Source: Effrenium voratum (taxonomy: Eukaryota; Sar; Dinophyceae; Suessiales; Symbiodiniaceae). From it: 64,000 bases of DNA. The notes below the pieces were generated by a model. The model saw only the letters and a list, made by a program, of their open reading frames with translations. It was not told the DNA's origin and did no database searches. The first letter of the stretch is position 1. Each line of letters opens with the position of its first letter. The position numbers and the translations under genes were made by a program. Location of the stretch: positions 585,001 to 649,000 of the forward strand of contig CAUJNA010001624.1 in assembly GCA_963377175.1 (NCBI GenBank). Direction: 5' to 3'. Of this stretch, positions 9,141-32,846 are shown piece after piece.

Positions 9141-9141
9141 T

Positions 9142-17034: not shown

Positions 17035-17222
17035 ACACACTTAAACTCCAGATGGAGAGTGCTAATCTTTCGAGTACAACTGGTGAGTCTCGAGTACAAC
17101 TGGTGAGTCTCGACTGGGTTCTGCTCGCGATGCACTCGGCTTCCCTCTAGCAGCGAACACGTTACCCGAAAGAACAAGAAGCACAAACAGCGCCGCAACC
17201 AAGGGGGCCAAAAGGACTTTCA
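17035..17222. repeat. Repeat B, left copy (188 bp)
   Basis: Identical by eye over 188 bp to 28873-29060. It contains CTCCAGATGGAG near its left end and a perfect 20-bp tandem duplication at 17071-17110. With repeat C it forms the direct repeat that brackets the eleven-ORF cluster. On the minus strand it encodes a hydrophobic, signal-peptide-like run (LLAPLVAALFVLLVLSGNVF) in the right-hand copy. Confidence 0.9.
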
Positions 17223-17275
17223 ATCACAGGTACGCATCGGCGTCCCGAGTGCATCCGTCTCTGCCTATAGCTTCG

Positions 17276-17365
17276 TAGACCAGGTCAGCAGCAAGACGCC
17301 TGGTCCCCCTGCTGCAACAGAAAGAGGTTTTGGTGGCAGGGTTTTCTGCCACTCCGCACACACAC
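17276..17365. repeat. Repeat C, left copy (90 bp)
   Basis: Identical by eye to 29136-29225. It contains the hairpin GTGGCAGGGTTTTCTGCCAC (7-bp stem). Between B and C the two loci differ (53 bp here, 75 bp on the right), so only parts of the terminal repeats are homogeneous. Confidence 0.85.
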
Positions 17366-17383
17366 GCCCCTCTACGAGGGGCG
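17365..17383 (-). promoter_or_regulatory. GC-rich hairpin at the 3' end of the ORF cluster
   Basis: CGCCCCTC-TAC-GAGGGGCG is a perfect 8-bp stem with a 3-nt loop. It lies 50 bp downstream of the stop of the last ORF and abuts repeat C. By position it could mark the 3' end of the element's RNA (processing, stability, or reverse-transcriptase recognition). It is missing next to the right-hand repeat C. Confidence 0.5.
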
Positions 17384-17432
17384 AGGTTTCTCTTTTCTCC
17401 TGCAGGAAGATCACATGCTCAAACTCGAATCT

Positions 17433-17933
17433 CTATCGTTGACCAAAATATCCTCCACGGCGAGGGGAGCGAGACACCGCCCTAAACCGCTCAGAAGACG
17501 GGAACGAGAGATCACCACGTTGAGCGTTGCGAGTGTCGCCATAGAGGACTGAAGCGATTTGCGAAGCAGCCGGGCGATCACCATGAGAAAATGGAGTGGC
17601 GTAGGTGAAGGTCTCCTCAACTGGAACGGCATCGGAGTTTTGAACTTGACCAAGAGCTGGATCATGTGGATAGTGAGTTGCGAAGGACTCAATCCGAGAC
17701 AGAATGCGCTGGTACCCTTTATGTTGCCAGTCACGGATGTCCCATGCCTGGACTGGCGCATTGGGATCAGTCACCCGCTGCCATTCCCGAAAGGAATTTT
17801 CAGGTAGATCAGGTACGGCGTCACCGCGGTGCCATCGTTGAGGCTGTCCTGGAGTGTATATCCGCACCCACTCCTGATCCTGCCAGACCGAATATTCGAG
17901 CCATGGGTGCTGCTTCGAATCATCGATGTCCAT
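17433..17933 (-). CDS. WxRIYxPG-family paralogue 1 (166 aa)
   Basis: Start chosen at the ATG at 17933, which places the conserved core near the N terminus like its paralogues. An upstream in-frame ATG (18002) would add 23 residues. The core reads WLEYSVWQDQEWVRIYTPGQ, then SFREWQRV, then WDIRDWQHKGYQR. The same block, W-[VI]-[RK]-I-[YF]-x-P-G, [YF]-REW-[RQ], RDW-x-x-x-GY-[QR]-R, occurs in the next three ORFs upstream. The C-terminal half is divergent and ends SRSPRRGGYFGQR. No signal peptide or membrane span. Function unknown; Trp/Arg richness could suit RNA binding (inference). It is the last ORF of the cluster, with a GC hairpin 50 bp beyond its stop. Confidence 0.7.
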   Translation of the reverse strand: MDIDDSKQHPWLEYSVWQDQEWVRIYTPGQPQRWHRGDAVPDLPENSFREWQRVTDPNAPVQAWDIRDWQHKGYQRILSRIESFATHYPHDPALGQVQNSDAVPVEETFTYATPFSHGDRPAASQIASVLYGDTRNAQRGDLSFPSSERFRAVSRSPRRGGYFGQR

Positions 17934-18083
17934 GTCGAAGCAAGAGGCAAGGATTGTCGCGGGCTCCGATCCAGCTAATAGATGAACAGGCACCACGCAC
18001 AACCATGTTCAAACAACAACCAAGCAAGATCATGCAAGTGTAGAGACCACCCTTATTTTGTACGCTGCGCTGCTCATGTGAGT

Positions 18084-18665
18084 CTAGTCCTGAGTCAGCT
18101 CGAAGACGGGACTCATCTTGTTTCCGCCACTGTCGGAAGGATTCACGGGCCGGTAGGGGTCGGAGACCCCAATCGTCTCCGATGGTGTGTTTCCACGCGA
18201 TGCACGTACTGGTTGATGAGGATGGGAAGCTAGACGTGCGCGAGCCGTCAGTTGTTGAGAAATCCCCTCCTGGAGACGAGTCAGTTCTTCAGTAGAGAAA
18301 TCAGCCGCATCCGAGGACCTGAGAATCGCGTCTAACAGCTCCGGCGACATACTCAATGCCGCAGACTGCGTGGCCACGCTGTGATGATCAGGGAGATACA
18401 TGGAATCAAATTCATGACCAGCGTGAGGGGCAGCGACTCTCCGATAGCCCTCTGTGGCCCAGTCTCGTTTGTACCACATAGTGACTTGGACCTGCCCACC
18501 GACTGAGTCCTGGTTGGGAGCATAGAACTCCCTCCATTCTCTAAAAGTATGCGGAGGAGGTGGAGCATCATGTTCTTCTTGTGGCGTCCATGGTCCTGGA
18601 TGAAAGATCTTGACCCACTGGGCATCAGGTTGTTGAGGATCCGGGCACCATTCCAGCCACGCCAT
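18084..18665 (-). CDS. WxRIYxPG-family paralogue 2 (193 aa)
   Basis: Start chosen at ATG 18665 (MAWLEWCPDPQQPDAQWVKI). The longer frame to 18848 reaches the stop of the preceding ORF and has a different composition. The core keeps WVKIFHPGPW, TFREWREF and YKRDWATEGYRR. The tail is longer than in the other copies and includes AILRSSDAADFSTEELTRLQ, a helical segment, then Arg/Ser/Pro-rich sequence. The upstream tract on the coding strand has TTGTTGTCCGCAG, a good trans- or cis-splice acceptor. Function unknown. Confidence 0.7.
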   Translation of the reverse strand: MAWLEWCPDPQQPDAQWVKIFHPGPWTPQEEHDAPPPPHTFREWREFYAPNQDSVGGQVQVTMWYKRDWATEGYRRVAAPHAGHEFDSMYLPDHHSVATQSAALSMSPELLDAILRSSDAADFSTEELTRLQEGISQQLTARARLASHPHQPVRASRGNTPSETIGVSDPYRPVNPSDSGGNKMSPVFELTQD

Positions 18666-18847
18666 GACAACGCAACCACGGAAAGACAAGTTGATAGGTG
18701 TACGGCTGCGGACAACAACGAGTGAAAGCGAAACAACTATCATAATGCAAAAGACCACTTTTGTAGCACTGCGCGGCTCCAGCATTGAAGTCAATCTCCC
18801 GAATCGAACTGAACTGAACAGACTCTCCAAGAAGGCGAGGACGGGCA

Positions 18848-19288
18848 TCAGCCATCTTGTGAGTTAGATGATGCCGAGGAGGAGGTCAATCCAGCATACA
18901 TGAGGTCCGGTGCACCCGAAGCGAAAACCGGCCTCGCTATGCTGGGATGTGGACGTCCCAGGCGTTGGTACCCCCTGGTGACCCAGTGTAATACCAAGTG
19001 TAGAAGGTGGCGTAGGATACCGGTTGCAAAACCGTGCCTTGTGGTTGTGCCGCCTGTGCTTTCCGTGGGCCAATACACTTCGAAGTGGTGGACCTTGCGC
19101 CATTCCCGATAGGTGGTCGGGTCATCCGGGGCCGGTCCCAGGGTGTCAGTGGCTACTGGATGCCACGGACCCGGTACATAGATCCGAATCCATTCCACAC
19201 TCGTTCCTGCTGGCCCATTGACGATGTCATAGTCAAAATAGCGAGGTAGGACCCATCGTGCTGCACCCTGCACTGTACTATTGAACAT
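18848..19288 (-). CDS. WxRIYxPG-family paralogue 3 (146 aa)
   Basis: It starts at ATG 19288 (MFNSTVQGAARWVLPRYFDY). The core VEWIRIYVPGPWHPV, TTYREWRKVHHFEVYWPTES and WVTRGYQRLGRP is closest to paralogue 4: both carry a YW..(E/D)STGGTT insert between the REW and RDW boxes. Here the second half of the box reads HLVLHWVTRGYQ instead of EYRDWQTRGYQ, perhaps decay or relaxed constraint. The tail is Ser/Ala-rich. Confidence 0.7.
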   Translation of the reverse strand: MFNSTVQGAARWVLPRYFDYDIVNGPAGTSVEWIRIYVPGPWHPVATDTLGPAPDDPTTYREWRKVHHFEVYWPTESTGGTTTRHGFATGILRHLLHLVLHWVTRGYQRLGRPHPSIARPVFASGAPDLMYAGLTSSSASSNSQDG

Positions 19289-19433
19289 TTCAACCCGACA
19301 AGCTGCTCAAAGTTATCAAGGAAAGCGGCGGACACATGGAGACGGCATGCGCACCACCAAGCAAGACAACCCAATGTGTACTCACTTACAAAGCAAGCAC
19401 AACCGCTTCTTTATCCAACATGCTACTCAAGTG

Positions 19434-19856
19434 TCAATCCGAATCATTCCAAGGGTCATGGAATGGTGGCGGTGACGGTTCCCGCCACGCTCCATCCGGT
19501 ACCGACGAGCCCACCGAGGACTCGACGTCTGCGTTCACGAGCATCGCGAATCCGATGGATTGTACAGGAGGTCCAAGCCGTTGATACCCTCGTGTTTGCC
19601 AGTCTCGGTACTCCCACACGTGGTAGGACACATAGGAAGTGGGCGTGACAGTGGGATCCATTGTGGTGCCTCCTGTGCTGTCTTCAGACCAATACACTTG
19701 GAAGTGATATGCTCTGCGCCACTCCCGATACGTGGAAGCGTGAAGTGGATCAGGAACTGGCGCCTCATCGGGAACGGGTCTCCAAATGCCCGGAGAGTAA
19801 ATTCGAATCCATTCCACTCCTCTATCGATCTGGTACTCGAAATACTGGGGGTTCAT
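19434..19856 (-). CDS. WxRIYxPG-family paralogue 4 (140 aa)
   Basis: Start chosen at ATG 19856 (MNPQYFEYQIDRGVEWIRIY), which aligns with paralogue 3. The core is VEWIRIYSPGIWRPV, STYREWRRAYHFQVYWSEDS, then YHVWEYRDWQTRGYQRLGPP. The acidic/proline tail ends PSPPPFHDPWNDSD. It is the best-preserved member and a good query for finding relatives. No catalytic motif recognised. Confidence 0.7.
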   Translation of the reverse strand: MNPQYFEYQIDRGVEWIRIYSPGIWRPVPDEAPVPDPLHASTYREWRRAYHFQVYWSEDSTGGTTMDPTVTPTSYVSYHVWEYRDWQTRGYQRLGPPVQSIGFAMLVNADVESSVGSSVPDGAWREPSPPPFHDPWNDSD

Positions 19857-20008
19857 AGCAGCAATACAGGCTCGCACGACTGCTAACCTAGTCGAAAGTC
19901 TGCGGCAAGGACACACATGCAATGCAAGCTGCACACATCCGCTGGAGAGTGAGGCAACTTTTCAAACTCAAGGTGAAACACTGCAACGAGGCCTGAAATG
20001 TCCAACTC

Positions 20009-20584
20009 CTAGGTTTCACTGTCGTTGATGTCGCGCACACCTGCAATGATAGTGTCCTGGTCGTCTGCGAGCACAAGGGGAAAGACATTTCCGCCCATGG
20101 CGCAGGATGGCATGACAGTAATGCTTGCAAGTTGCCGATGGGGACCGCGATGGACGGCCAGCACGTTTGGAAGAAAACACTGTAAAGGGCCGTCGAGATC
20201 GCCGCGGCGCTGAAGCTGATGCTGTCCGAGATCGTTTGGACGAGCGCCCTGGACTGCGTGGTTCTTCATCACGGGAAGGTCAGTGCTGTAGATCGAGCGG
20301 CGTGTGCGCTGCGATTTCGAAGAGGTAGGGCAGGATTGTCCGCGAGGGGCTGAGATCGAGGGGCTGCGTACCGAGGGCATAAACTGTGGGTGTAGAATCA
20401 CCGGTGGTGGTGGTGGTGGTGGAGGAGGAGGTGGAAGAAGCAATGGCAGACTTGGCGGGGGCGGAGGCGACGTAGTCAGCCGAATGGGTCTGTCGAGTAA
20501 AGCCCCGGGTCCATGAAATTGTAACCACGTCGGCTGCGCTCCATGGGTCCAGGTAATGTACGTCTGTACAACTTGTTCCGACAT
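20009..20584 (-). CDS. Poly-proline protein, possibly a diverged fifth paralogue (191 aa)
   Basis: It starts MSEQVVQTYITWTHGAQPTW, then LQFHGPGALLDRPIRL. The W-L-x-F-x-G-P-G segment resembles the W-[VI]-[RK]-I-Y-x-P-G box of the neighbours. A run of prolines with Leu/Ser (about residues 39-62, encoded by a GGT/GGA repeat at 20395-20435) follows, then an Arg/Gln-rich region. The REW and RDW boxes were not found. Function unknown; low-complexity Pro may act as a spacer. Confidence 0.6.
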   Translation of the reverse strand: MSEQVVQTYITWTHGAQPTWLQFHGPGALLDRPIRLTTSPPPPPSLPLLLPPPPPPPPPPPVILHPQFMPSVRSPSISAPRGQSCPTSSKSQRTRRSIYSTDLPVMKNHAVQGARPNDLGQHQLQRRGDLDGPLQCFLPNVLAVHRGPHRQLASITVMPSCAMGGNVFPLVLADDQDTIIAGVRDINDSET

Positions 20585-20764
20585 GATTTGAGCAACTCAG
20601 GCATGACTTCACTGCATGGCAACGACATCTCCCAAAACGACAAGCAAGATTAAGTCACGTGCAAGCAAGCAAATATCATGTGATCAACAACTCGAACCGT
20701 ACCCACCGCCGCAGCTTACCATTTAGTCCTCCGATGGTCGCGGCTGCATTTGACGACCGTGTTC

Positions 20765-21493
20765 CTAGCCGCGAGCCTCAAGTTGTTGATAGACCTTCCA
20801 TGCCTGCTTGACTTCTTCAATCGGCTTCTGAAGAAACCGAGCTATGGTCTTATAGGTGGGCCTGGAATCCTTGTCTTTCTTCCGTCTCACCATTTCATCC
20901 AGCTCACCCTGTGTCCATGCCGTGAAAGGTTCACGGTATGCATTGCGAAGTGCAATGGTGAATTCTTGTAGAAGTTCCCTAGGACCATGAACCACCGTAG
21001 GTGACGGCCGGAACGACGAGGCACCTGGATGCGGACGTACCGAACCATCAGAATCCGAATCAGGTGTCGTAGGCGTCGTTTGTCCTGGCTCTCGGCCACC
21101 GTGTGCAGCGAAGGGAGCAAGTGGACGAGGCGGTGGCAGTCGATCCAACATAGATTCGGGCCGAGTACCAGGGTTGTGGTCACTAGCATCACGATGTGCC
21201 GCTCGAGGCGGGGACAAAGCCGGTATGTACCAGGTAGATGACGTGTCCACCGGTCGAGCCCGAATTCGTGTGGGGGATCGGGATCTGTCAGACGAGGCGC
21301 GCTCCGTTATGATGCGGGGCCGCAACCCATGTCTGGAGTTTCTTGGTGCTCTCGGGATCACCACCGTGTCTGACGGACGACCACGCTCCGTCATCAAGGC
21401 AAAGTTCAGGGTGTCCAGAGCTGTCGCAACTTGGGATGCAAGGACATTGAGTACAGCCACCAGGTTATTCACAAACTCGACAGACAACTGCAT
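20765..21493 (-). CDS. Arg/Pro-rich protein with C-terminal helical domain (242 aa)
   Basis: It starts MQLSVEFVNNLVAVLNVLAS, an amphipathic N-terminal helix. A disordered Arg/Ser/Pro/Asp-rich middle follows (TERASSDRSRSPTRIRARP, SDSDGSVRPHP). The compact C-terminal domain of about 70 residues contains EFTIALRNAYREPFTAWTQG, ELDEMVRRKKD and TYKTIARFLQKPIEEVKQAW, reminiscent of a Myb/SANT or helix-turn-helix-like fold, where W-T-x-x-E-L-D and a later K-x-x-Q-A-W are typical spacing. DNA binding is therefore a weak inference. It is preceded by TTTGCAG 40 bp upstream. Confidence 0.6.
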   Translation of the reverse strand: MQLSVEFVNNLVAVLNVLASQVATALDTLNFALMTERGRPSDTVVIPRAPRNSRHGLRPRIITERASSDRSRSPTRIRARPVDTSSTWYIPALSPPRAAHRDASDHNPGTRPESMLDRLPPPRPLAPFAAHGGREPGQTTPTTPDSDSDGSVRPHPGASSFRPSPTVVHGPRELLQEFTIALRNAYREPFTAWTQGELDEMVRRKKDKDSRPTYKTIARFLQKPIEEVKQAWKVYQQLEARG

Positions 21494-21623
21494 GGCAACC
21501 GATCAAACAACAAGGTCAACTCAAGCAAATCTGCAAAGCTATAACGCTGCGGCATGGCAAAGATATGGTGCATGCAAACATGAATGTAGCAAACGCTGAG
21601 GTACTTTTGTCGCTGTTGCTCTG

Positions 21624-22127
21624 TCACCGTTCATAAGACAGACCTGATGGTCGGCAAGCTGGCATGGCTTTGACCGCCGGTGGATACTTAGGAGTGTGAG
21701 CATAGCGGCGGGCCATGGGAACCGCATCAGCTGGGCGGTCCGGGAGCCGTCGGTGATGGCTGCGGGATCGTCTCCGGTGCGGCTCTCGATGCCTAGATCT
21801 TCGCCTTCGTCTGTGCTCCCAGGAGGTGCTGACACTCACCGTGCGTACGTGAGCAGGGTGTTCCGCACGGTTATCCGAGGTGGCCACGAGAGTGACCGGC
21901 GCTGCCATGTGGTCAGATCTGACCGATGTTGCCGGCAAGTGCGGCGGCGCCGTGGACGGCGGAGGCAGCGGCGGAGGATGACCGTCAGGAATCGGTGGCG
22001 GCGGGGGCGGCAGTGGATGCCGCTGCTGGCCCTCAAGACGCTGCAGTCCAGCCAGGAGTAAACTGATCTGCGATGACATAGCGAGTAGCATGTGCCGGCA
22101 ATCGCGTAGCAAATCCCCATGATCCAT
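21624..22127 (-). CDS. Pro/Arg/Ser-rich small protein (167 aa)
   Basis: Start chosen at ATG 22127 (MDHGDLLRDCRHMLLAMSSQ, then ISLLLAGLQRLEGQQ), a short N-terminal helix like that of the next ORF. A longer frame to 22235 would add a hydrophobic N terminus. The middle is a poly-Pro tract and the C-terminal half is basic (WEHRRRRRSRHREPHRRRSR), an RS/arginine-rich segment likely to bind nucleic acid. The N-helix, Pro linker, Arg-rich layout parallels the 242-aa ORF and may reflect duplication. Confidence 0.55.
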   Translation of the reverse strand: MDHGDLLRDCRHMLLAMSSQISLLLAGLQRLEGQQRHPLPPPPPPIPDGHPPPLPPPSTAPPHLPATSVRSDHMAAPVTLVATSDNRAEHPAHVRTVSVSTSWEHRRRRRSRHREPHRRRSRSHHRRLPDRPADAVPMARRYAHTPKYPPAVKAMPACRPSGLSYER

Positions 22128-22391
22128 CACACTCCCGGAAAGATGAGACAACCAGGGCCAAATCAACCAGTGATGACTAAAAGCGGCGACGGAAAGCAAC
22201 ACAAGGCATGCAACCAAACGTGTACATGTGAGCAAGCAACACCATAAAAGGAAACATCAAAGTGAAGCCATGAGCCGCGGACAACTCTATGCATTTTCCG
22301 GAAGAGGAGCGTCATGATGCACATCATGAAAACAAAGCGCACACCACGTCGGGTCAGTAGCAACGCTATTGTACTGGCATGCCACCATGGT

Positions 22392-23729
22392 TCACCAGAA
22401 CATGCCCATGTAGCTGGGCACTGCAATCGAAGACCGGAGTTTCCACCTGCCATCTTTGGCGTGAATGCAATCATAGTAATGGGAGGCTGCTATGTCCGCG
22501 TACACGCCGCCGCGGGGTATAGTGCAATGCTGTTGCCGGAGACGAGCAGAGCCACCAATGCATACCGGGCGGTCCGTCCGAATTCCACCGAACTGCGCTG
22601 CAGATTGGATTGCCGCTTCCTGAGAATGGAGGCTGCCCCTGCAGTAGAATCCCATCGGAGGCAACCAGACTTCGTTCCAGTTGGAGCATTCACGATTGGG
22701 GGAAGGATGTTCTTGCCACTTCGAAGGTCGGATCAGTTCCTCATCACGCAGGATTTGCATGGCAGCCTGCATATTGGTGTTATGGGACCAGAAAAATGTG
22801 GACTGCGATTGAGTGCGATGCTTGTCCGGCAACGATCGGCGTGGCTCAAATGAGAAGATGATCCCAAAGAGGTTCTTCTGCGAGTTCTTTTTGTCCGCGG
22901 AGAAGTGGTGAAACGTCCGTGTGGTTCTGCTGATATATGGCCACTTCTCCTCGCAAATGCCGAGCTGGACGATGAGTTGCTGCGGTAGTGACCGCCATGA
23001 GATCTGGAAGAAGTCCGAAATGTCCTTGACCACTTGATCCGTCCAGCGTCCCGGAACCCCATGTGGTGGCTGAGCAAACGGAAACTCCGAAATGGATTTG
23101 ACCCGCTGTTCATCTTCGATGATACTGCGTCGGTGCGGCATGAGGCTCCTGTAGACCGACTCCCATGATTTCTTCAACAGCTCTGGTTCAGGAAATACCA
23201 AGGCGGCAATCGAAGGCAAGGTGTAGTAGAGGACATCATTCACTTCGATGGCAATCTCCTCGATCCGGCACCCAGTGCGCAGCTTGAAGCGATGAATCCC
23301 CAAATCAGGCACCTGCCGACGAACTGAGAGAGGCACCAGCGCGATGCGGTTCTCAGAAGGACTGCCATGAGCAGGAGGAAACGGAGGCGAGCGTGGCCTC
23401 CTTTGATCACTATGGGCGCGTCTACCACTACTCCTCCATTCACCCCAATCCTCCTCCTCATCCGAATGCCCTTGCGGGCCCGGTGTGAGCTGGATCCGCG
23501 GAACTCGTGATCGGGGGGAACGCGATCGGGGCTGCCCAGTGAGTGCTGGTACGTCACGTGACGGGCCGTGGGATTGCACACTTTGCTGGTGTGCTATGCC
23601 GTGAGTCCGAATGAACATTTGGATCTCATTGCCGTTGATGAAGTTGGGGAGGTGCTCGAGCGTCACGCGGCTCGTGGTTTGTACTGATCCGTCAGCACGC
23701 AGAAGGCTGGTGACCTTATATTCCGCCAT
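22392..23729 (-). CDS. 445-aa protein with possible ADP-ribosyltransferase-like C-terminal region
   Basis: It starts MAEYKVTSLLRADGSVQTTS just 50 bp after the RT stop. The N-terminal third is followed by an Arg/Pro-rich linker and a conserved-looking middle (LGIHRFKLRTGCRIEEIAIE, RWTDQVVKDISDFFQISWRS). The C-terminal part reads WSHNTNMQAAMQILRDEELI-RPSKW, then MGFYCRGS, then HCTIPRGGVYADIAASHYYD. A His followed by A.QIL....I.PS.W and then GFYCRG resembles the H-x-T, I-L-x-x-G-x-[IL]-x-P-S, G-x-Y-x-x motifs of the ART/PARP/KptA superfamily. The catalytic Glu is not evident, so this is only a fold-level suggestion. No transmembrane segment. Confidence 0.55.
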   Translation of the reverse strand: MAEYKVTSLLRADGSVQTTSRVTLEHLPNFINGNEIQMFIRTHGIAHQQSVQSHGPSRDVPALTGQPRSRSPRSRVPRIQLTPGPQGHSDEEEDWGEWRSSGRRAHSDQRRPRSPPFPPAHGSPSENRIALVPLSVRRQVPDLGIHRFKLRTGCRIEEIAIEVNDVLYYTLPSIAALVFPEPELLKKSWESVYRSLMPHRRSIIEDEQRVKSISEFPFAQPPHGVPGRWTDQVVKDISDFFQISWRSLPQQLIVQLGICEEKWPYISRTTRTFHHFSADKKNSQKNLFGIIFSFEPRRSLPDKHRTQSQSTFFWSHNTNMQAAMQILRDEELIRPSKWQEHPSPNRECSNWNEVWLPPMGFYCRGSLHSQEAAIQSAAQFGGIRTDRPVCIGGSARLRQQHCTIPRGGVYADIAASHYYDCIHAKDGRWKLRSSIAVPSYMGMFW

Positions 23730-23779
23730 GGTTCTGAGCTAGCTACATGCAAACAAAGCACAATGCAACAACAACTGTC

Positions 23780-26386
23780 TCAAGCATGCACAAGAAGAAA
23801 CAGAATGACAAGCTCACATGCAGATTTTGTCCCGAGTCGACGCCGAACGTCACGCAGAAGGTGGGATTCAAAACCTTTGGCCTCATAAAGGCGTTTGAGA
23901 GCGTCGAGCCCATGTTGTTGCTGAGCCGCCGGTTGTGCACCGCGTATGATGAGCCACGAGCGAGAAGACCAAGAAGAATAAGTGAACATCTGATCATTGG
24001 CACTCCGAATTCCTTTGATTTGGGAGGGATGATCAGGTAGCTGTGGTGTAATAGTTCTGGAGGAAGAATCACATCGGTAACCCAGTACTTTGTCATCATG
24101 TTGGACCTCAAGCATTACTGGTGGGCGATAAAATTCCAGGGAAAGAAAGTTCATGAGCACGGGCGAGTGTGGAGCTGAGTCTCGAAGGAGAATGAAACGA
24201 TTATCTACGTAGCGCTCATGCCAAATCACACCAATGTCGGGCATGCAGAACCGCAAAGAACTCATGGTTTGGTGCCAGAAGAAATCCTCAACCGTAGCGA
24301 CCAAATTGCACAACGGTGGCGCGGCTGGTGATCCCATAGCGACTCCTCGTTCTTGGCGGAACAAGTATCCGTTGATCTCGAAGTGACTGTTGTCAATGAC
24401 AAAGTCCAGAAGGTGCCGGAGATCTTGTTCACGAAAAATTCGAGGGATCTTGGTTTGACGGCGCCACTTTCCTTTGAACATACGGCGTCGATGATCTGAC
24501 TTGACTTCGTACACGGACCATTGTGAGGAACTGCGAAGGCCAACAACTTGATCGTATCGATGGAGAAGCACTTGAAGCGCCTGGTGGAATCGTTCCGTAG
24601 GAATGGACGTGAAGAAGCCTGACAGGTCTTGCGACACCAGGTGGATGTACTCATCAGGATCTGCTTTTGACAGTGCTTCCCACAGCTGCTGGATAAGTTC
24701 TTGTACTGAAAGTTGACCTGCAATGTCGGGGAAGGCAGCCTTGGTAAGTTCAAATATGAGTGCACCGAAGACCGTGAGGAAGGGAGCTGCCCATGTGCGA
24801 AAGAATGAAATGATGGGTCGAGCTTTCTGCCAGTCCTTGGTCGGCTTTGGGAGGATGCGTGCTGTGGGCAACGGTGCTTGAAGTCGAAGTCCCCATGCAT
24901 ATTGTTGACGTAGGAGAGAAGGTACCGTGGTTACCACTTCAGAGCGAAAGGATGCTGCGGATTCGCGACAAAGTGAGAAGACGTCCCCCGAGCAGAATGT
25001 CTTTCGCATCAGTATGGCAAACAAGGACGGGCACATCACATGTGCGCGGGAGGGAAAATGATCTGCTGGGATAACAACCCACGAAGACAAAGAAGCCACA
25101 GTGCGTTGCAACGATGACGATGACCAATAAGCCCGATCTTGGAGGTTCATCCGATGAGTGTCCATTAACTGAGTCACAACCGGCTGTAGATCTGAAAGGA
25201 GACTGGAACCATGTACATGCCATCGGCGAGCAAGTTTGCGAAGTTGTGTGGTGAAACGTTGATGCAATAAGTCGACATCACCGAAAAACTGATCCTTCAT
25301 TGAGGCGGCCATGATTTCAACGTCAATGTCCGCATTGATGCGAGAAAACTCATCCACCATTACAGCGTGACCATGTGCACGGTGTAGATGGTGATCATCG
25401 ATGTCCAGACAGCGACACGGAAAGGATGTTTCAGGAGTCCATTTGCGCTGCCATGTGCGGTAGTTGTATATCTTGTCGCCCAATGTGGCGCTGCGAGTTT
25501 CCACAACCCTGATCTTCGGAATGAAAAGAGAAGGGAACAAATCCCGATGAGAAGCAATCCAGCTTTGTAACCATGTGCCAAGTAGAGCTTTCCAATTCCG
25601 GACATGTAGCGGCGGTAAGAGTAGCTGTGTCAAAGTGGTGGGTGGTTGTAGCCGTCGTTTGCGCAGCACCTGGGCGAGGAGTTTCTGCGCCTTGGAGCGG
25701 AAGGGCTCGTTGACAAAGACTGCGAGCCGCAATAAGTAATACAGCTGAGTGGGAGGGAAAGCCGCCGACAGTAGGTCACGCATGACTTGGAACGACGCTC
25801 CTGTATTAGATCCCAGCTGATAGAGAATCGAGTAATGGGCTTGGACGTCATCCTGGATGTCAGGTCGTAGTTGCCGTTGGAGATCCGGATGTAGTCGTCG
25901 TCGAAAGCGCTTGTGCAAGCCGAGGGAAGTGGGAGACGACAGCGAGTGGCGTCGAAAATCCACAAGATGTTCCCGGAAGCCCACCTTGCGCAAGATTCTG
26001 TGTACCCAGGGCGCATTCAAATGCGGGCGTAGCAGGTATTGCCATTTGCTTTCTTGAACCCACACCGAGGAAACTGGTAGTTTGATTTCCACTGGTATAG
26101 CACAGAAGAGCCAGTAAGTATTGGATCTTTTCCAGTAGTGAAGCGCTGGTTCAAAGAAGGCATGCCGTCCACGAAGTAGTTGTAGAAATTTGCGACTGCG
26201 TGAGTGTTCACGACGTAGAACATCCTGATCAGTCGCCCCAACATAGTATGGTGTGTGCCATGGGGAAAGTCGAATGTAGACGCACGGTTGTTGGTGATGA
26301 CCTGGATCATGTATGAAGTCATAGAGGTCAGGAAGTCGCGCCCGCAATGAGCGTAGATGCCGCGTGTCAGCGAAAGTAGAGTGCAT
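23780..26386 (-). CDS. GIY-YIG endonuclease-reverse transcriptase, Penelope-like
   Basis: 868 aa from ATG 26386 (15 more from 26431; residue numbers here count from the latter). N-terminal GIY-YIG-like nuclease: VYI (51-53), YVG (63-65), then LRREH (72-76) matching the R..H helix. A CxC-HxxH-type cluster (C339, C341, H347-H355) may bind zinc. RT fingers: KPTKDWQKARPIIS (529-542). Motif A is QDLSGFFTSIP with D602; motif B is QERGVAMGSPAAP (693-705); motif C is RYVDN (740-744), where the usual second Asp is Asn. The thumb-like region after motif E reads KVLGYRCDSSSRTITPQLPD and then HPSQIKG, as in Penelope proteins. EN before RT is the permuted order of the Chlamys/Naiad-type clades. It overlaps the previous ORF by 20 nt. 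Likely drives target-primed retrotransposition. Confidence 0.85.
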   Translation of the reverse strand: MHSTFADTRHLRSLRARLPDLYDFIHDPGHHQQPCVYIRLSPWHTPYYVGATDQDVLRREHSRSRKFLQLLRGRHAFFEPALHYWKRSNTYWLFCAIPVEIKLPVSSVWVQESKWQYLLRPHLNAPWVHRILRKVGFREHLVDFRRHSLSSPTSLGLHKRFRRRLHPDLQRQLRPDIQDDVQAHYSILYQLGSNTGASFQVMRDLLSAAFPPTQLYYLLRLAVFVNEPFRSKAQKLLAQVLRKRRLQPPTTLTQLLLPPLHVRNWKALLGTWLQSWIASHRDLFPSLFIPKIRVVETRSATLGDKIYNYRTWQRKWTPETSFPCRCLDIDDHHLHRAHGHAVMVDEFSRINADIDVEIMAASMKDQFFGDVDLLHQRFTTQLRKLARRWHVHGSSLLSDLQPVVTQLMDTHRMNLQDRAYWSSSSLQRTVASLSSWVVIPADHFPSRAHVMCPSLFAILMRKTFCSGDVFSLCRESAASFRSEVVTTVPSLLRQQYAWGLRLQAPLPTARILPKPTKDWQKARPIISFFRTWAAPFLTVFGALIFELTKAAFPDIAGQLSVQELIQQLWEALSKADPDEYIHLVSQDLSGFFTSIPTERFHQALQVLLHRYDQVVGLRSSSQWSVYEVKSDHRRRMFKGKWRRQTKIPRIFREQDLRHLLDFVIDNSHFEINGYLFRQERGVAMGSPAAPPLCNLVATVEDFFWHQTMSSLRFCMPDIGVIWHERYVDNRFILLRDSAPHSPVLMNFLSLEFYRPPVMLEVQHDDKVLGYRCDSSSRTITPQLPDHPSQIKGIRSANDQMFTYSSWSSRSWLIIRGAQPAAQQQHGLDALKRLYEAKGFESHLLRDVRRRLGTKSACELVILFLLVHA

Positions 26387-26798
26387 GCATTTCACACAAG
26401 AGAGAAGTCTTGTAGAAGTGCAGGACTTCAAAGAACGGTGGGAAGTAGCCGTGATCTTGTGAAATGAGACGTTGTAAGAAACTAATCAATAAATAGGCAG
26501 TGCACCGACATCTGTGAAGCTCGTACCTGTTGGCCACGGTGTGATGAGAGTTTGACATAGCGTGATTCGGAATCTGAAGGGCTATCCGGACCACAACTAA
26601 GACCTCGAGGATGAGACCCAGCCACGGCAATTGTGTGATGGATTCGTACTCCTCCGTTGGAATCGACGGTGGTGGTAGTCCAGGAAAACAGTACTGCCAG
26701 CACGTAGAGAATATGGTCAACGAGTGCAGAAGGTCGTCCAGCGACTGCCATTGTGCAACATCATCATAGATTTCGCAGCGGCGAAGTTCATCCAACAT
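26367..26798 (-). CDS. Small protein upstream of and overlapping the RT (143 aa)
   Basis: Start chosen at ATG 26798 (MLDELRRCEIYDDVAQWQSL, DDLLHSLTIFSTCWQYCFPG), preceded on the coding strand by TTGGTTGCATCTCACC. A central segment, LPWLGLILEVLVVVRIALQI, is strongly hydrophobic (about 20 residues) and could be a membrane span or buried core. The C terminus (LISQDHGYFPPFFEVLHFYK) overlaps the RT start, so the RT might be reached by re-initiation or a second acceptor site. No family recognised. Confidence 0.5.
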   Translation of the reverse strand: MLDELRRCEIYDDVAQWQSLDDLLHSLTIFSTCWQYCFPGLPPPSIPTEEYESITQLPWLGLILEVLVVVRIALQIPNHAMSNSHHTVANRYELHRCRCTAYLLISFLQRLISQDHGYFPPFFEVLHFYKTSLLCEMHALYFR

Positions 26799-27009
26799 GG
26801 TGAGATGCAACCAACGAAATCTACCACAAGGCGGCGACATGAATACAAGCATCACAGACAATCACACAAGAGACAATGCAAGAACGAGCAAGTACAAGAT
26901 CAATCTGGTGCAACGCAGACACTTGACGGACGAGTTTTCACCTGGACTCATCCGTGACATTGTTGCCGCTCCGGGCTCATATGAGAACGAAGGTCATCAT
27001 GATGCCTTC

Positions 27010-28476
27010 TCATCCACACAGTAGACGAGCCGTCACGATGAGGTGACTCAATGCCTTCTCAGTGAGTTTGGTAAGATAGCCGGGTTCTAATCCCCACGAA
27101 GCTGCCATTGCCCCGAGCGTGGGCGCGTCGCCTTTCGGCATGCGTTGCCGCGCCTGAAGGAGCTGCGTCGCCATAGAATCTAATGACTTGTTGCCGTTGA
27201 GCCGGGTCGGGTGATTGGCCCACTTAACCAGCGATGCCAAAGTGGTTGTTGTGGGTGATTGCTTGAGAAAAAGGCGAGGTTGGTCACTGGTCCATGTGTA
27301 GTACTTGACAACTTCATCCGGCGTGCTGTTCATGGTGAGCAATTGTGACGCCGCCGGTTTGGACGGCGGCGACGACACTCCGTGAAGAGACTGGATGATC
27401 CGAGGTTGCACCACGCTATCAAACGACTTGCCATCCAGGGCGGCTGCGCTGGCTGTGGGAAGGGAGCTGGCAGGTGACGAGGATGGTGTGTGGTTGACCG
27501 GTGGCGGTGTAACCAACTCTGCATCATCCTTCTGGCTTGTCATCGTGGGAGAGGTCGATGCGCGAAGTGATGCGGAATACTGAGCTTGGAGAAGTTCGTG
27601 GGCACGATTCAAATCATTGAACTTTTTGACCATGTCCTCGGTCTGGGCGGCAGGTGCGAGAGAGGTGTGATGCTGTTGAAGAAATTGAAGCACCAAGTTG
27701 GCCAAATGGTCATGGACCTTGATGCGCTGATTGAAGTCATCGATGTTGAGACCCAGCGTGTTGGCAAGGTCCTTTTCCAGGGTGAGCAGGTTGAGTGACT
27801 GTGATCTTCGTAGTAATTTGGAACAGGTACTCCAAAGTAAGGCCTCGGTGCGGGTGCGAAAGCCTTCCCACGTCACGAATCGGCCGTGTGCAAACGGCCT
27901 GAGTAGCCAGTTGGTGAGGCCCCCGTGGATAACCTGAACCAGGCGAACGTCCCTAATATCCATGCCTGACATGTCGCGAAGGTTGCCATGCGGAGTGTTG
28001 GCAACAGTCATGGGCAGGCTGAAGTTGTAGAGCTGATTGACATCAAACATGCCGTCTCCAGGTGTCCAGTCAGGCGAGGGAGTAAGCCAGGCTTTCTGAG
28101 GACGAACCGGTAGAGCCGCATGAGGTCCGGGTGACGGTGTAGGTTGGGAAGTAGTAACCGGTGGTGGCATCACTGGTGGCATGAACTTGGATGGCGTGGG
28201 ATCTGGAGGGATCGGCATCATGTAGTTGATCGCTGGGTATTGGAATTGTTGTGTGGGATTGTGAGTCGATTGAAAGTTGGTAGGCATCATCGGAAAGTTG
28301 TTGGCAGCGTTGTAGCCGGAGTTGTGTTGCCATGAAACCAAGTTGTTCCAATCCATGTTCTCCGAGACCTGGTTGTCATTGTGCTCACGTCGGCGTGCTT
28401 TGTGAGCTTGAGGGGACGGACTCCGATCACGTCTGCGCCGAGTCCTGGATCTATCACGATCATCACGTCGAGACAT
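27010..28476 (-). CDS. gag-like / RS-domain protein, first ORF of the cluster (488 aa)
   Basis: It starts MSRRDDRDRSRTRRRRDRSP, an RS-type basic N terminus, followed by an Asn/Pro/Met/Gln-rich low-complexity region (about residues 40-150). A central folded region (GLTNWLLRPFAHGRFVTWEG, FRTRTEALLWSTCSKLLRRS) precedes a helical stretch (LANLVLQFLQQHHTSLAP, AHELLQAQYSASL), a Ser/Thr/Pro linker and a C-terminal domain (VVKYYTWTSDQPRLFLKQSP, LVKWANHPTRLNGNKSLDSM). First position, basic RS tail and lack of enzyme motifs suit a nucleic-acid-packaging, gag-like role (inference). YTWT..QP in the C-terminal domain echoes YITWTHGAQP in the poly-Pro ORF. Two AG acceptor-like sites after T/G-rich tracts lie 20 and 95 bp upstream. 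Confidence 0.65.
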   Translation of the reverse strand: MSRRDDRDRSRTRRRRDRSPSPQAHKARRREHNDNQVSENMDWNNLVSWQHNSGYNAANNFPMMPTNFQSTHNPTQQFQYPAINYMMPIPPDPTPSKFMPPVMPPPVTTSQPTPSPGPHAALPVRPQKAWLTPSPDWTPGDGMFDVNQLYNFSLPMTVANTPHGNLRDMSGMDIRDVRLVQVIHGGLTNWLLRPFAHGRFVTWEGFRTRTEALLWSTCSKLLRRSQSLNLLTLEKDLANTLGLNIDDFNQRIKVHDHLANLVLQFLQQHHTSLAPAAQTEDMVKKFNDLNRAHELLQAQYSASLRASTSPTMTSQKDDAELVTPPPVNHTPSSSPASSLPTASAAALDGKSFDSVVQPRIIQSLHGVSSPPSKPAASQLLTMNSTPDEVVKYYTWTSDQPRLFLKQSPTTTTLASLVKWANHPTRLNGNKSLDSMATQLLQARQRMPKGDAPTLGAMAASWGLEPGYLTKLTEKALSHLIVTARLLCG

Positions 28477-28872
28477 GGTGACTCAACTGACTCTGAATCT
28501 GCACACTTCCACCTTGAGAGAATCGGACCCGACAACATTCAAATCAATGCAAATGCAAGTTAACGGCCCCAGCTGCAATGGTCGATCGACATGTTCAAGG
28601 CAAAGCAAATACAAATCAGCAATCGTCAACCGCAATAATACGAGCAACAAGTTCAACCAATGGTCAGCAAATGCAATGAAAGTCGGCAGCCAGCCGCTGT
28701 GGTGAGACGTCACTATGGTCTGGTGGCATTCTTCCCTTTAGTGAAACCTCGTTCCTGGTTAAATGTGAAATTCCGCTGTTCTATGATAAGCACGTTGAGG
28801 TCAAATTTTCCGACAGAGCCGGCCCGGGGTCACACAATGGGTACACCCGAGGATTCCCCACGAATGGGGTGT
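28477..28872 (-). promoter_or_regulatory. 5' leader region of the ORF cluster
   Basis: On the coding strand this 396-bp stretch carries TTG/TTGC-rich tracts (TTGTATTTGCTTTGCCTTG) followed by GACCATTGCAG and GTGTGCAG near the first ATG. Next to repeat B it has GTGTACACCCCATTCG and GGGTGTACCCATTG, two related GTGTAC-type words separated by about 14 bp. It probably holds the promoter and leader of the element RNA; no TATA box is evident. Confidence 0.35.
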
Positions 28873-29060
28873 ACACACTTAAACTCCAGATGGAGAGTGC
28901 TAATCTTTCGAGTACAACTGGTGAGTCTCGAGTACAACTGGTGAGTCTCGACTGGGTTCTGCTCGCGATGCACTCGGCTTCCCTCTAGCAGCGAACACGT
29001 TACCCGAAAGAACAAGAAGCACAAACAGCGCCGCAACCAAGGGGGCCAAAAGGACTTTCA
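28873..29060. repeat. Repeat B, right copy (188 bp)
   Basis: Identical by eye to 17035-17222, same orientation. On the element's strand it lies directly upstream of the 5' leader. Confidence 0.9.
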
Positions 29061-29135
29061 GAATCACGGCATCACGGAAATGCAGGTACGCCGGAGTGGC
29101 CAACTCCGGTATCCCGTCTTGCTGCCTAGCTTTGT

Positions 29136-29225
29136 TAGACCAGGTCAGCAGCAAGACGCCTGGTCCCCCTGCTGCAACAGAAAGAGGTTTTGGTGGCAGG
29201 GTTTTCTGCCACTCCGCACACACAC
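29136..29225. repeat. Repeat C, right copy (90 bp)
   Basis: Identical by eye to 17276-17365. It continues into (CA)n and then repeat D, whereas the left copy continues into the GC-rich hairpin and the last ORF. Confidence 0.85.
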
Positions 29226-29485
29226 ACACACACAAACCAACAGAAAAATGCAACCGCGCGCACGCATGCACGCACATATGCACGCAACAGCTGCTTGGGC
29301 ACGTGCCCTGCGCGCAAGTTGCTCTGCACAAGTGCTTTGTGCAACTTGCTCTGTGCAAGTTGCGCTGCGCAAAGTGCTCTGTGCAAGTTGCTCTGCGCGA
29401 GTTACGCTGCGGAAGTTGCTCTGCAAGTTGCTCTGCGCAAGCTGCTCTGCGCAAGTTGCTCGGCGCAAGTTGCTCGGCGCAAGTT
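29226..29485. repeat. Repeat D, copy 1
   Basis: It starts AAACCAACAGAAAAATGCAA after the CA tract and runs through GCGCACGCATGCACGC into 14-bp GCAAGTTGCTCTGC units. It recurs at 30184-30432 with small indels. Confidence 0.8.
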
Positions 29486-29590
29486 TTGCAGCTGGAGCTG
29501 CAGGAATGTACTCCGCGTACTACTCTTGTGATTTTGGAGCTGGAGGTGCGGGAATGTACTCCGCGTACTACTTTTGCACTTAAAATTTGC
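29485..29590. repeat. Approx. 50-bp tandem duplication (GGAATGTACTCCGCGTACTA)
   Basis: Two copies of GGAATGTACTCCGCGTACTA(C)T sit about 50 bp apart, separated by TGTGATTTTGGAGCTGGAG. They contain the near-palindrome AGTACGCGGAGTACATT on the opposite strand. Confidence 0.6.
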
Positions 29591-29619
29591 GACTTTCAGC
29601 TGGAACTGCGTGCAGCCAG

Positions 29620-29705
29620 AGCTGCCGCGGACCAGGCGGGGATCGCACCCGCGACCGCGCGACATCGGAGAGCAGCCGCGCAAACCACGAGACAATTGCC
29701 AAAGA
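29620..29705 (-). repeat. tRNA-like SINE relic, copy 1
   Basis: On the minus strand, TTGTCTCGTGGTTTGCGCGG resembles a polymerase III A box and CGCGGGTGCGATCCCCGCC a B box/T-arm, at tRNA-like spacing. The acceptor stem does not pair well, so this is a tRNA-derived element rather than a functional tRNA. False translations such as GGDRTRDRATSES arise from it. Confidence 0.55.
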
Positions 29706-29755
29706 CAAATTCGCAAGCAAAAAACACGCAAAAAAAAGGAGACAACTCCCGAGGA

Positions 29756-30183
29756 CTACGTGTGCTACTTCTACGTAGTGCCGCATGCAAGTCAGACTTC
29801 GGGCTTCCGCTGCGTAGAGAAAGAGGTACTGCAGCTTCTTCTCCAAGCCGAGCTTCGAATCATTCTCGTGACGGCGCCAGTTCGCGCAGTGTGGCTGCCG
29901 ATCACAAGGAGATCGCAATCCGTCTGTGCTGCGCGCAGTCGCAGACTGCCCTTGGCTTCCGCGTGGAGGTTGAGGAAACTGCGAGGAACCAGAGCTCGTG
30001 CCACCAGCTGGACCATGTTGGCCATCAGCACCTGTCCTCGCACCCACACCCATTTGCCAGAAAAAAGAACATGATTTGCCAGACAAAAAAACAAGTATTA
30101 CAGTTCGCTCCTCATTCACGCACGCACGCACAGACCCGCAGGAAGCGCAAACACAAACGCACACACATACACACGCACACACA
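29756..30183. repeat. Repeat A, copy 2
   Basis: Near-identical to 16606-17034. The minus-strand frame keeps SSQFPQPPRGSQGQSATAR to HYVEVAHV, but the ankyrin-like end is replaced by unrelated sequence. This marks the right-hand copy as a truncated gene fragment. Confidence 0.85.
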
Positions 30184-30432
30184 CACACACACACAAACCA
30201 ACAGAAAAATGCAACCGCGCGCACGCATGCACGCACATATGCACGCAACAGCTGCTTGGGCACGTGCCCTGCGCGCAAGTTGCTCTGCACAAGTGCTTTG
30301 TGCAACTTGCTCTGCGCAAGTTGCGCAAAGTGCTCCGTGCAAGTTGCTCTGCGCGAGTTACGCTGCGGAAGTTGCTCTGCAAGTTGCTCTGCGCAAGCTG
30401 CTCTGCGCAAGCTGCTCTGCGCAAGCTGCTCT
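30184..30432. repeat. Repeat D, copy 2
   Basis: Second copy of 29226-29485, again joined to its neighbour through a (CA)n tract. Confidence 0.8.
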
Positions 30433-30469
30433 CCTGGCAACAATCAGCACAGCAAAACAAACACCAGCA

Positions 30470-30830
30470 AAACTCTCCAGATTTCGATCCTGGCCTGTGG
30501 CCTGGCCTGTGGGCACAGCTTCTCCACGACAGCGGCAGCTAGGTCTGCCTTGGTCACGTTGCTGCCTGCGACCCATTGGCGCACATCCAGCCGTCGGGCG
30601 AGTGCGCGAAGTTGGGGTTGGGCTTTGGCCGCCATCTCTTGCTGCAGCCACGCTTTGCCATGCTGGGCCGCGCCAGCCTGAAGCCTAGCTACTTCGAGCT
30701 CCATGACTTCTGTTTGAGCCAAATCTCGATGATCATCCGCAAGGTGCCACATAACAACCAGCCGTGTGCGCCATGCCCGTAAATAAGCCGTGTGCGCCAT
30801 GCTCCCCGCAACTTCTTTCATGATGAGAAC
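30470..30830 (-). CDS. Possible coding fragment, helical, SAP-like end
   Basis: The minus-strand frame reads MKEVAGSMAHTAYLRAWRTR, LVVMWHLADDHRDLAQTEVM, ELEVARLQAGAAQHGKAW, LALARRLD-type sequence and VAGSNVTKADLAAAVVEKLC. The end resembles a SAP-type motif (L..L...G.....-TKADLA..L). The start at 30823 is uncertain and the frame runs on into minisatellite. Probably a fragment of a gene or retroelement. Confidence 0.35.
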
Positions 30831-30917
30831 TCCTTGCGTCAAACTCCTACAGGGTGAGTGGCCTGAAAGCATAACTCCCCACGATGTGCGGCAAACTTGT
30901 TTAACCCCGGCCTGGCA

Positions 30918-31606
30918 CATGCGCAAGTTGCTCTGCGCAAGTTGCTTTGCGCAAGTTGCTCTGTGCGAGTTGCAGTGTGTGCAAGTTGGCGCGAGACAGC
31001 ACCAGGCAAGGTGCTCTGCGCAAACTGGTCGGTGCAAGTTGGTCTGCGCAAGTTGCTCTACGCAAGTTGCACTAAGTTGCTCTGCGCAAGTTGCTCCGCG
31101 CAAGTTGCTCCGGCAAGTTGGTCCCTGCAAGTGGCTCCCTGCACGTTGCTCTGTGCGAGTTGCAATATGTGCAAGTTGGCGCGAGACAGCACCAGGCAAG
31201 GTGCTCTGCGCAAACTGGTCGGTGCAAGTTGGTCTGCGCAAGTTGCTCTACGCAAGTTGCACTGTGCAAGTTGCTCTGCGCAAGTTGCTCCGCGCAAGTT
31301 GCTCCGGCAAGTTGGTCCCTGCAAGTGGCTCCCTGCAAGTTGCTCTGTGCAAATTGCGCTCCCTGCAAGTTGCTCTGTGCAAGCTGCTCTGTGCAAGTTG
31401 CTCTGTGCAAGTTGCTCTGCGTAAGTTGCTCTGCGCAAGTTGTGCAAATTGCGCTCCCTGCAAGTTGCTCTGTGCAAGCTGCTCTGTGCAAGTTGCTCTG
31501 TGCAAGTTGCTCTGCGTAAGTTGCTCTGCGCAAGTTGCTCTAGGCAAGGCGCTCTGCGCAAACTGGTCGGTGCAAGTTGGTCTGCGCAAGTTGCTTTAAA
31601 ATGCAA
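30918..31606. repeat. 14-bp minisatellite (GCAAGTTGCTCTGC)
   Basis: Tens of copies of a 14-bp unit with variants, organised into higher-order duplications: a segment containing GTTGGCGCGAGACAGCACCA recurs at about 30985 and 31175, and TTGCGCTCCCTGCAAGTTGC recurs at about 31355 and 31450. Since 14 is not a multiple of 3 and the unit lacks stops, all frames are open with a 14-residue period. Confidence 0.9.
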
Positions 31607-31715: not shown

Positions 31716-31734
31716 ACAACAAAAAGTCGCAAAA

Positions 31735-32585
31735 AACCTGAGTTTTTGCACCTCGACCACGCCGATCCCCGCAGAGGGTTGCGCGGGCACCGCAGAAATC
31801 GCAAAAAACCATGGGTTTTTGCACCTCGACCACGCCGATCCCCGCAGAGGGTTGCGCGAGCACCGCAGAAATCGCAAAAAACCTCGAGTTTTTGCACCTC
31901 GACCACGCCGATCCCCGCAGAGGGTCGCGCGAGCACCGCAGAAATCGCAAAAAACCATGGGTTTTTGCACCTCGACCACGCCGATCCCCGCAGAGGGTCG
32001 CGCGAGCACCGCAGAAATCGCAAAAAACCATGGGTTTTTGCACCTCGACCACGCCGATCCCCGCAGAGGGTCGCGCGAGCAGCGCAGAAATCGCAAAAAA
32101 CCATGGGTTTTTGCACCTCGACCACGCCGATCCCCGCAGAGGGTCGCGCGAGCAGGTTAGAAATCGCAAAAAACCATGGGTTTTTGCACCTCGACCACGC
32201 CGATCCCCGCAGAGGGTCGCGCGAGCAGCGCAGAAATCGCAAAAAACCATGGGTTTTTGCACCTCGACCACGCCGATCCCCGCAGAGGGTTGCGCGGGAA
32301 CTTGAGAAATCGCAAAAAACCATGGGTTTTTGCACCTCGACCACGCCGATCCCCGCAGAGGGTCGCGCGAGCACCGCAGAAATCGCAAAAAACCATGGGT
32401 TTTTGCACCTCGACCACGCCGATCCCCGCAGAGGGTCGCGCGAGCAGCGCAGAAATCGCAAAAAAACCATGGGTTTTTGCACCTCGACCACGCCGATCCC
32501 CGCAGAGGGTCGCGCGAGCATTTAGAAATCGCAAAAAACCATGGGTTTTTGCACCTCGACCACGCCGATCCCCGCAGAGGGTCGA
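31735..32585. repeat. 73-bp satellite array, about 12 units
   Basis: Units start at 31738, 31811, 31884, 31957 and so on every 73 bp, up to 32542. Each contains AAAAACCATGGGTTTTT, a 7-bp stem hairpin, and GCACCTCGACCACGCCGATC. The most variable site follows CGCGCGAGC (ACCGC, AGCGC, AGGTT, ATTT). Because 73 leaves remainder 1 on division by 3, each open frame repeats every 73 residues; the long ORFs here are artefacts. Confidence 0.95.
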
Positions 32586-32637
32586 TTTTCGTGTAGTGTC
32601 GTCGGCACTACCCCGCCGCCCTAAGAAGAGATTTTAA

Positions 32638-32835
32638 CTCCTCGCAAGTCAATTGCACTTGACTCCTTGCACTTGCAACTTGCACTCGACTCCTTACACT
32701 TGCAACTTGCACTTGACTCCATGCACTTGCAACTTGCACTTGACTCCATGCACTTGCAACTTGCACCTGGCTCCTTGCACTTGCAGCTTGCACTTGACTC
32801 CTTGCACTTGCAACTTGCACTTGACTCCATGCGCA
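32638..32835. repeat. ~27-bp minisatellite (CACTTGCAACTTGCACTTGA)
   Basis: About seven units of CACTTGCAACTTGCACTTGA plus CTCC(A/T)TG. It grades into the 13-bp array. Confidence 0.85.
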
Positions 32836-32846
32836 GCTCGCAATGA

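Follow-up and report, generated by a model that had tools for sequence, protein, structure and literature searches.

The window analysed here, a 64,000-nt stretch of the Effrenium voratum genome (assembly GCA_963377175.1, contig CAUJNA010001624.1, positions 585,001 to 649,000), carries on its minus strand a 12.19-kb unit that is very probably a giant Penelope-like retroelement with multiple genes, belonging to the N-terminal-endonuclease type. Evidence that this unit is discrete and mobile is good, and fair evidence from a reverse transcriptase (RT) model, motifs, terminal repeats and insertion targets places it in the Penelope-like clade. Mobile elements of the Penelope-like kind are closely related to telomerase and, as a rule, compact. 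The initial annotation took one open reading frame (ORF), or one extra, to be their norm, in agreement with the 4-6 kb and one or two ORFs given as typical in PMC6431247. Its proposal of a giant Penelope-type element is supported, but the number of genes given there needs correcting. It is the multi-gene make-up that is new; the Penelope-like kind was already known. Coordinates are those of the window, the ORFs are called o1 to o11 with o11 as the first gene (Table 1), and statements from PMC6431247, PMC3846280, PMC11167929 and PMC12477816 refer to passages of those papers.

Terminal repeats and insertion site

The direct repeats of 188 bp (17035-17222 and 28873-29060) and 90 bp (17276-17365 and 29136-29225) reported in the initial annotation are both exact, with 100% identity, and constitute two blocks of a single terminal repeat of 331 bp on the left and 353 bp on the right. 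The middle of the repeat is unlike between the two copies (53 bp at 17223-17275, 75 bp at 29061-29135) and may be shuffled by recombination or template switching. It differs again at locus L001, where the outer blocks are identical.

The element sits in the first copy of a 961-bp host tandem duplication, in which 16597-17040 matches 29749-30192 at 98.6% and 29217-29475 matches 30178-30431 at 96.1%. It splits a (CA)n tract that is unbroken in the second copy (about 30132-30212), and because of this uninterrupted tract the second copy represents a paralogous empty site. When the flanks of the element were joined in silico, 688 bp aligned over the junction at 97.7%, so that the sense strand of the element reads (TG)n-CGGAGTGGCAG ... 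GGAGTTTAA-GTGTG(TG)n. Any target-site duplication is indistinguishable from the microsatellite at the insertion site. Other copies end in the same kind of sequence: (TG)n was present at eight of nine independent 3' ends, and of 10 copies inspected for the 5' end, the window's among them, eight had it, each time preceded by (TG)n. The end at C612 carries GTGTGTGTG only, in place of (TG)n. The 3' repeat measured 263-341 bp in six of six other copies.

Directly before the 3' repeat, an 86-nt segment is predicted to fold into a GC-rich hairpin (z -2.1; equal stability in 4 of 200 shuffles), a candidate cis signal. The hairpin followed by GTGTGTGTG recurs in all six other long copies checked, and GAGGGGCGTGTGTGTGCGGAGTG is kept both in six of six other long copies and in the short derivatives described below. 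An AC-rich stem loop has been described as an internal initiation site in a Poseidon element (PMC11167929).

Copies in the genome and mobility of the whole unit

The genome searched comprises 1.156 Gb in 3,699 contigs. A search with the RT scored 52 places (window included) out of 2034 candidates; these are 96-100% identical over at least 865 of 868 amino acids (aa) and lack an internal stop in 50 cases, although as the best-scoring places they are biased toward intact copies. Among 30 RT loci, window included, 24 span o8, RT, o10 and over half of o11 in the window order in one or two blocks; one of these, L022, has its second block in o1. Runs of N interrupt L005, L014, L021 and L025, while parts of o8 are absent from L011 and L012, where o11 is matched partially. 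A whole-element DNA search scored 1 of 1683 candidates; the near-single copy number that this would have suggested was rejected.

The initial annotation had looked for support to several full-length copies at unrelated loci that keep the ORF order and carry the repeats at either end, and such copies do occur. C3501, read in three pieces, holds a complete second copy with both ends and all ORFs in order, o5 being interrupted; C3333, C3143 and C1013 have both ends together with o11, RT, o8 and o4-o1, the o7-o5 stretch lying outside the sequence read. At the start of C3096, 8.2 kb of another copy match at 98.9% identity; its flank differs, and o1-o8 are all open, o5 being shorter by two residues. 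The predicted stretch from o4 to the 3' end was examined in ten further copies, and in seven of them o4-o1 follow one another in order. L042, which has a run of N, contains part of the series, o7-o3, and then ends. C1335 (L018, L045) has a second RT copy about 4 kb beyond the first in the same orientation, a possible partial tandem, and no element ORF was found in this predicted stretch of C158 (the L022 copy), perhaps owing to an internal deletion.

The 3'-terminal 30-mer of the element has 1052 genomic matches with at most two mismatches, as against none for the control. Both outcomes that the initial annotation had named as refuting its reading, single-copy occurrence and mobility of the RT alone, are excluded. 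Spacing was taken from 100 of the 1052 places, all with 0 mismatches, among which 31 had a same-strand neighbour within 20 kb. Twenty-one of these listed pairs are spaced 10.9-12.4 kb, 18 of them 11,701-11,902 bp (window, 11,838 bp); of the 20 long pairs besides the window, 17 fall within 137 bp of its spacing. The remaining listed pairs comprise nine at 1.43-1.64 kb and one at 19.1 kb, with none between 1.64 and 10.9 kb. Five of the 21 long pairs enclose RT places (C1624, C266, C328, C550 and C635), most other interiors being unread. In the 10.9-kb pair at C612 (L060), the end stretch matches window 19924-17032 at 79%, which makes it a divergent long relative. The terminal spacing at C2822 is nearly that of C612.

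Such copies could also have arisen if unrelated mobile elements had nested or fused once and the composite had then been amplified by segmental duplication of host DNA. An identical flank of 414 bp is common to L001 and L039, and at least one pair is therefore duplicated or allelic. Segmental duplication is nevertheless disfavoured because the flanks would travel along, and the other 3' flanks among the ten compared are unrelated; moreover, terminal-motif pairs recur at near-constant spacing on many contigs, and for most of the ends examined the site is a (TG)n tract. We therefore regard this origin as highly improbable, the least credible of the explanations considered.

Of the nine short pairs, the four at C446, C670, C1202 and C2900 (L056-L059) were read. 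They are elements of about 1.9 kb, composed of a 5' repeat (its outer part beyond the fetched sequence in L056 and L058), a leader of about 140-170 bp, a core of 0.94-1.0 kb and a 3' repeat. The core is common to all four and has no blastn match in the long element. These short elements are non-autonomous relatives that have both ends and the leader in common with the long one, and the element ends seem sufficient for mobilisation in trans. Because the short derivatives retain only the ends and a little leader, the ends are probably cis signals on which the proteins can act in trans.

An alternative is a host gene array that lies between Penelope terminal repeats and owes its movement to an RT supplied in trans from another locus, the inner RT being incidental. 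In rotifers, pseudo-LTRs (long terminal repeats) and host genes framed and moved by Penelope ends have been described (PMC3846280); in the present genome the ends alone seem to be enough for the short elements to move, and of the 21 long pairs no more than the five named above are known to hold the RT. Against a carried array, RT and companions occur together in the copies read (24 of 30 loci spanning o8 and part of o11, 7 of 10 with o4-o1), the RT, o1-o4 and o11 protein families share apparent contigs (see below), and no other 12-kb cargo was seen among the copies read, all of which except C3096 and C612 were reached via the RT. On balance a carried array is unlikely, with little probability left to it.

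Gene content and encoded proteins

Between the terminal repeats lie eleven minus-strand ORFs starting with ATG, of 140-868 aa, all of them as initially annotated; one more, of 212 aa (24262-24900), lies wholly within the RT in a different frame and was left out of the count. The three longest ORFs (868, 488 and 445 aa) compare with a maximum of 342 aa in 300 first-order Markov simulations, in which the highest one-strand ORF total was 1,720 aa; single ORFs of 140-190 aa are individually within chance expectation. In other copies o1-o4, o6, o7, o8 and o11 recur at the expected place. The conserved genes number about nine, not eleven, because o10 belongs to the RT frame elsewhere and o5 is not kept. 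As o10 is in the same frame as the RT in C3501, and the open frame measures at least 1,017 aa at 45 of the 52 RT places, o10 is probably the front of the RT ORF, shifted out of frame in the window copy. Likewise, o5 is probably not a gene, since it is open in two of four full copies, and in L034, L040 and L042 the matches to its two halves are not in one frame.

Most genes of the element are under purifying selection. The ratio of nonsynonymous to synonymous differences (pN/pS) was determined for o1-o8, RT and o10, o11 being left out with no single locus holding it whole; as every comparison is made against the window copy, the values are not independent of one another. It is 0.10-0.33 in seven ORFs, RT among them, and higher in o2 and o5 (Table 1). 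The RT value of 0.10 (open in 29 of 29 copies) is biased downward by the ranking of matches, and o10 gave 0.35 (open in 24 of 28). Between o3 and o4, codon differences at positions 1, 2 and 3 number 45, 40 and 74 among 121 codons.

Structural comparison of the RT model, whose quality is modest, returned telomerase for all of the top 9 Foldseek and top 13 VIA matches. Ahead of the RT, from residue 36, lies a GIY-YIG-like signature (VYIR, YYVGAT, R, E, N) conserved in four aligned members. A Pfam search of the RT ORF gave no GIY-YIG hit and the N-terminal region is modelled at low confidence, so this domain is known by motif alone. The CxC motif at residues 324-326 is also present in P0031, P0032 and P0033; these three proteins are distant RT relatives (about 28% identical) with both the CxC and RYVDNR motifs. 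In a 5.8-billion-protein database the RT has 34 relatives, the largest cluster having 241 members, and some database proteins are predicted as fusions of RT with o10 or with o8. Of the domains that would point to an LTR retrotransposon or retrovirus, Pfam detected no integrase, protease, RNase H or Gag in ten ORFs, a search that also missed this RT, and an Rfam search gave no match to the hammerhead ribozyme.

The four ORFs nearest the 3' end, o1-o4, encode paralogues 30-45% identical over matched parts and sharing the motifs W.RI..PG.W.P...YREWR and RDW...GYQR. A 52-sequence alignment of the family yielded an all-beta model (predicted local distance difference test, pLDDT, 64) with no informative match in the PDB. 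The same database holds 191 relatives, with clusters of up to 135 members among the 120 listed. The o11 protein, with 59 relatives there, has a strongly conserved centre and an Arg/Ser-rich N terminus, and its N-terminal part was found in all nine other 5' regions searched. No kinship was detectable between o5, o6, o8 or o11 and o1-o4, or between o5, o6 or o8 and o11. When contigs of equal size in the protein lists were taken as identical, RT and o1-o4 apparently share six contigs, RT and o11 six, and o1-o4 and o11 thirteen, one contig being common to all three lists.

The polycistronic layout, the four-member paralogous family with its all-beta model and the conserved first ORF with an Arg/Ser-rich N terminus are unusual for a retrotransposon. 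They would suit an element of viral origin, either an endogenous virus or a multi-gene derivative of one, in which the RT merely happens to be telomerase-like and o1-o4 or o11 would be capsid- or gag-like structural proteins; we consider such an origin improbable, about as much so as a carried gene array.

Table 1. Features of the element and its insertion site, with window positions; open-frame counts exclude partial copies (0-5 per ORF), and pN/pS is relative to the window copy.
Feature	Position	Strand	Basis
Whole element, 12.19 kb, within (CA)n/(TG)n microsatellite	17036..29225	-	terminal repeats, empty paralogous site, other terminal pairs equally spaced
5' terminal repeat, pseudo-LTR-like, starts CGGAGTGGCAG after (TG)n	28873..29225	-	exact repeats; 5' ends of other copies
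o11, 488 aa, Arg/Ser-rich N terminus, conserved central domain, first gene	27010..28476	-	59 relatives; largest cluster 190 members
o10, 161 aa, N-terminal part of RT ORF in other copies, here out of frame	26367..26852	-	P0001, P0002, P0010 and others; C3501
RT, 868 aa, N-terminal GIY-YIG-like motif, CxC at 324-326, RT with RYVDNR	23780..26386	-	relatives, alignment, model
o8, 445 aa	22392..23729	-	open in 23/27 full copies (5 partial), pN/pS 0.14
o7, 167 aa, Pro/Arg-rich	21624..22127	-	open in 4/4 full copies (1 partial), pN/pS 0.20
o6, 242 aa	20765..21493	-	open in 4/5 copies, pN/pS 0.10
o5, 191 aa, probably no conserved gene	20009..20584	-	open in 2/4 full copies (2 partial), pN/pS 0.58
o4, 140 aa, paralogous family with o1-o3, all-beta model	19434..19856	-	open in 10/11 full copies (1 partial), pN/pS 0.16
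o3, 146 aa, o4 paralogue (45% identical)	18848..19288	-	open in 7/10 full copies (2 partial), pN/pS 0.33
o2, 254 aa, paralogue of o1/o3/o4	18084..18848	-	open in 7/7 full copies (4 partial), pN/pS 0.54
o1, 166 aa, paralogue of o2-o4	17433..17933	-	open in 9/9 full copies (1 partial), pN/pS 0.23
GC-rich hairpin then GTGTGTGTG, directly before 3' repeat; candidate cis signal	17366..17382	-	86-nt fold
3' terminal repeat, end = GGAGTTTAAGTGTG	17035..17365	-	exact repeats; 1052 genomic matches of its 30-mer
Second copy of 961-bp host tandem duplication, with empty site	29749..30709	.	alignment to element's flanks

Beyond the element, dense tandem repeats of 14-bp AAGTTGCTCTGCGC-like, 73-bp and shorter units occupy 29308-31600, 31720-32584 and 32634-33312, and both strands carry long spurious ORFs as a result. 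A roughly 105-bp dispersed repeat occurs at window 9141-9245 and 61858-61963, and also at 5672-5786 of L034.

Relation to known elements and a proposed mechanism

The Naiad/Chlamys group, reportedly described by Craig et al. in 2021, is a clade of Penelope-like elements with an N-terminal endonuclease, in which GIY-YIG precedes the RT with a CxC linker between them; microsatellite targets, no hammerhead, an insertion-in-fingers domain in the RT and a single ORF are its other reported traits. The window element is alike in its N-terminal GIY-YIG-like motif, CxC linker, telomerase-like RT, terminal direct repeats and microsatellite targets, and in that no hammerhead was found by the Rfam search, whereas its 12.2 kb and about nine conserved genes, including a four-member paralogous family, contrast with the one ORF reported for the clade. 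The telomerase-related RT (by model) and the direct terminal repeats agree with Penelope-like elements in general. The element fits the N-terminal-endonuclease type because of its GIY-YIG-like N terminus, CxC linker, pseudo-LTR-like repeats and (TG)n targets.

The Terminons of bdelloid rotifers are likewise giant members of the Penelope lineage with several accessory ORFs, but they are endonuclease-deficient and telomere-attached, reach 40 kb and carry hammerheads (PMC6431247). The window element, in contrast, has a GIY-YIG-like N terminus, ends in (TG)n tracts inside large contigs rather than at telomeres, and gave no 3' hammerhead in the Rfam search. Canonical Penelope/Poseidon elements share pseudo-LTR-like direct repeats and an RT with a GIY-YIG-type domain (PMC3846280, PMC11167929), yet they have the RT before the GIY-YIG domain, a single ORF and typically 4-6 kb (PMC6431247), with AT-rich targets in the cases described. 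The Chlamys elements of Ectocarpus are also Penelope-like elements of an alga from TSAR (telonemids, stramenopiles, alveolates and Rhizaria), a group for which, according to the passages of that paper, none had been reported earlier; a multi-gene structure goes unmentioned in its passages on them (PMC12477816). The term Penelope occurs 0 times in a review of dinoflagellate genomics (PMC11453091).

A fuller picture, which we put forward tentatively and with somewhat less than even confidence, is that of an undescribed lineage of giant endonuclease-bearing polycistronic Penelope-like elements outside animals and plants, with nine selected genes, a four-member beta-protein family, o11 packaging or delivering the RNA, an RT primed by annealed nicked TG repeats, and a parasitic short family using the same ends. 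Under the main reading, a giant Penelope-like element of the N-terminal-endonuclease type, a single long RNA would be transcribed from the 5' repeat, and the GIY-YIG-like domain would nick (CA)n/(TG)n DNA. The freed CA strand could then anneal to GUGUG at the RNA 3' end, or after the hairpin, and prime reverse transcription by the telomerase-like RT. The o11, o8, o6 and o7 proteins and the four paralogues o1-o4 may form or regulate the ribonucleoprotein, a role we infer for these companions.

A lineage that keeps about nine genes, most of them under measurable selection, inserts into TG repeats and supports a short parasitic family would show that endonuclease-bearing retrotransposons of the Penelope-like kind can become gene-rich. 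Its many near-identical copies would offer a tractable system for the roles of extra proteins in a retroelement and for how target repeats prime a telomerase-like RT, and its occurrence in a dinoflagellate host would extend the known range of Penelope-like elements.

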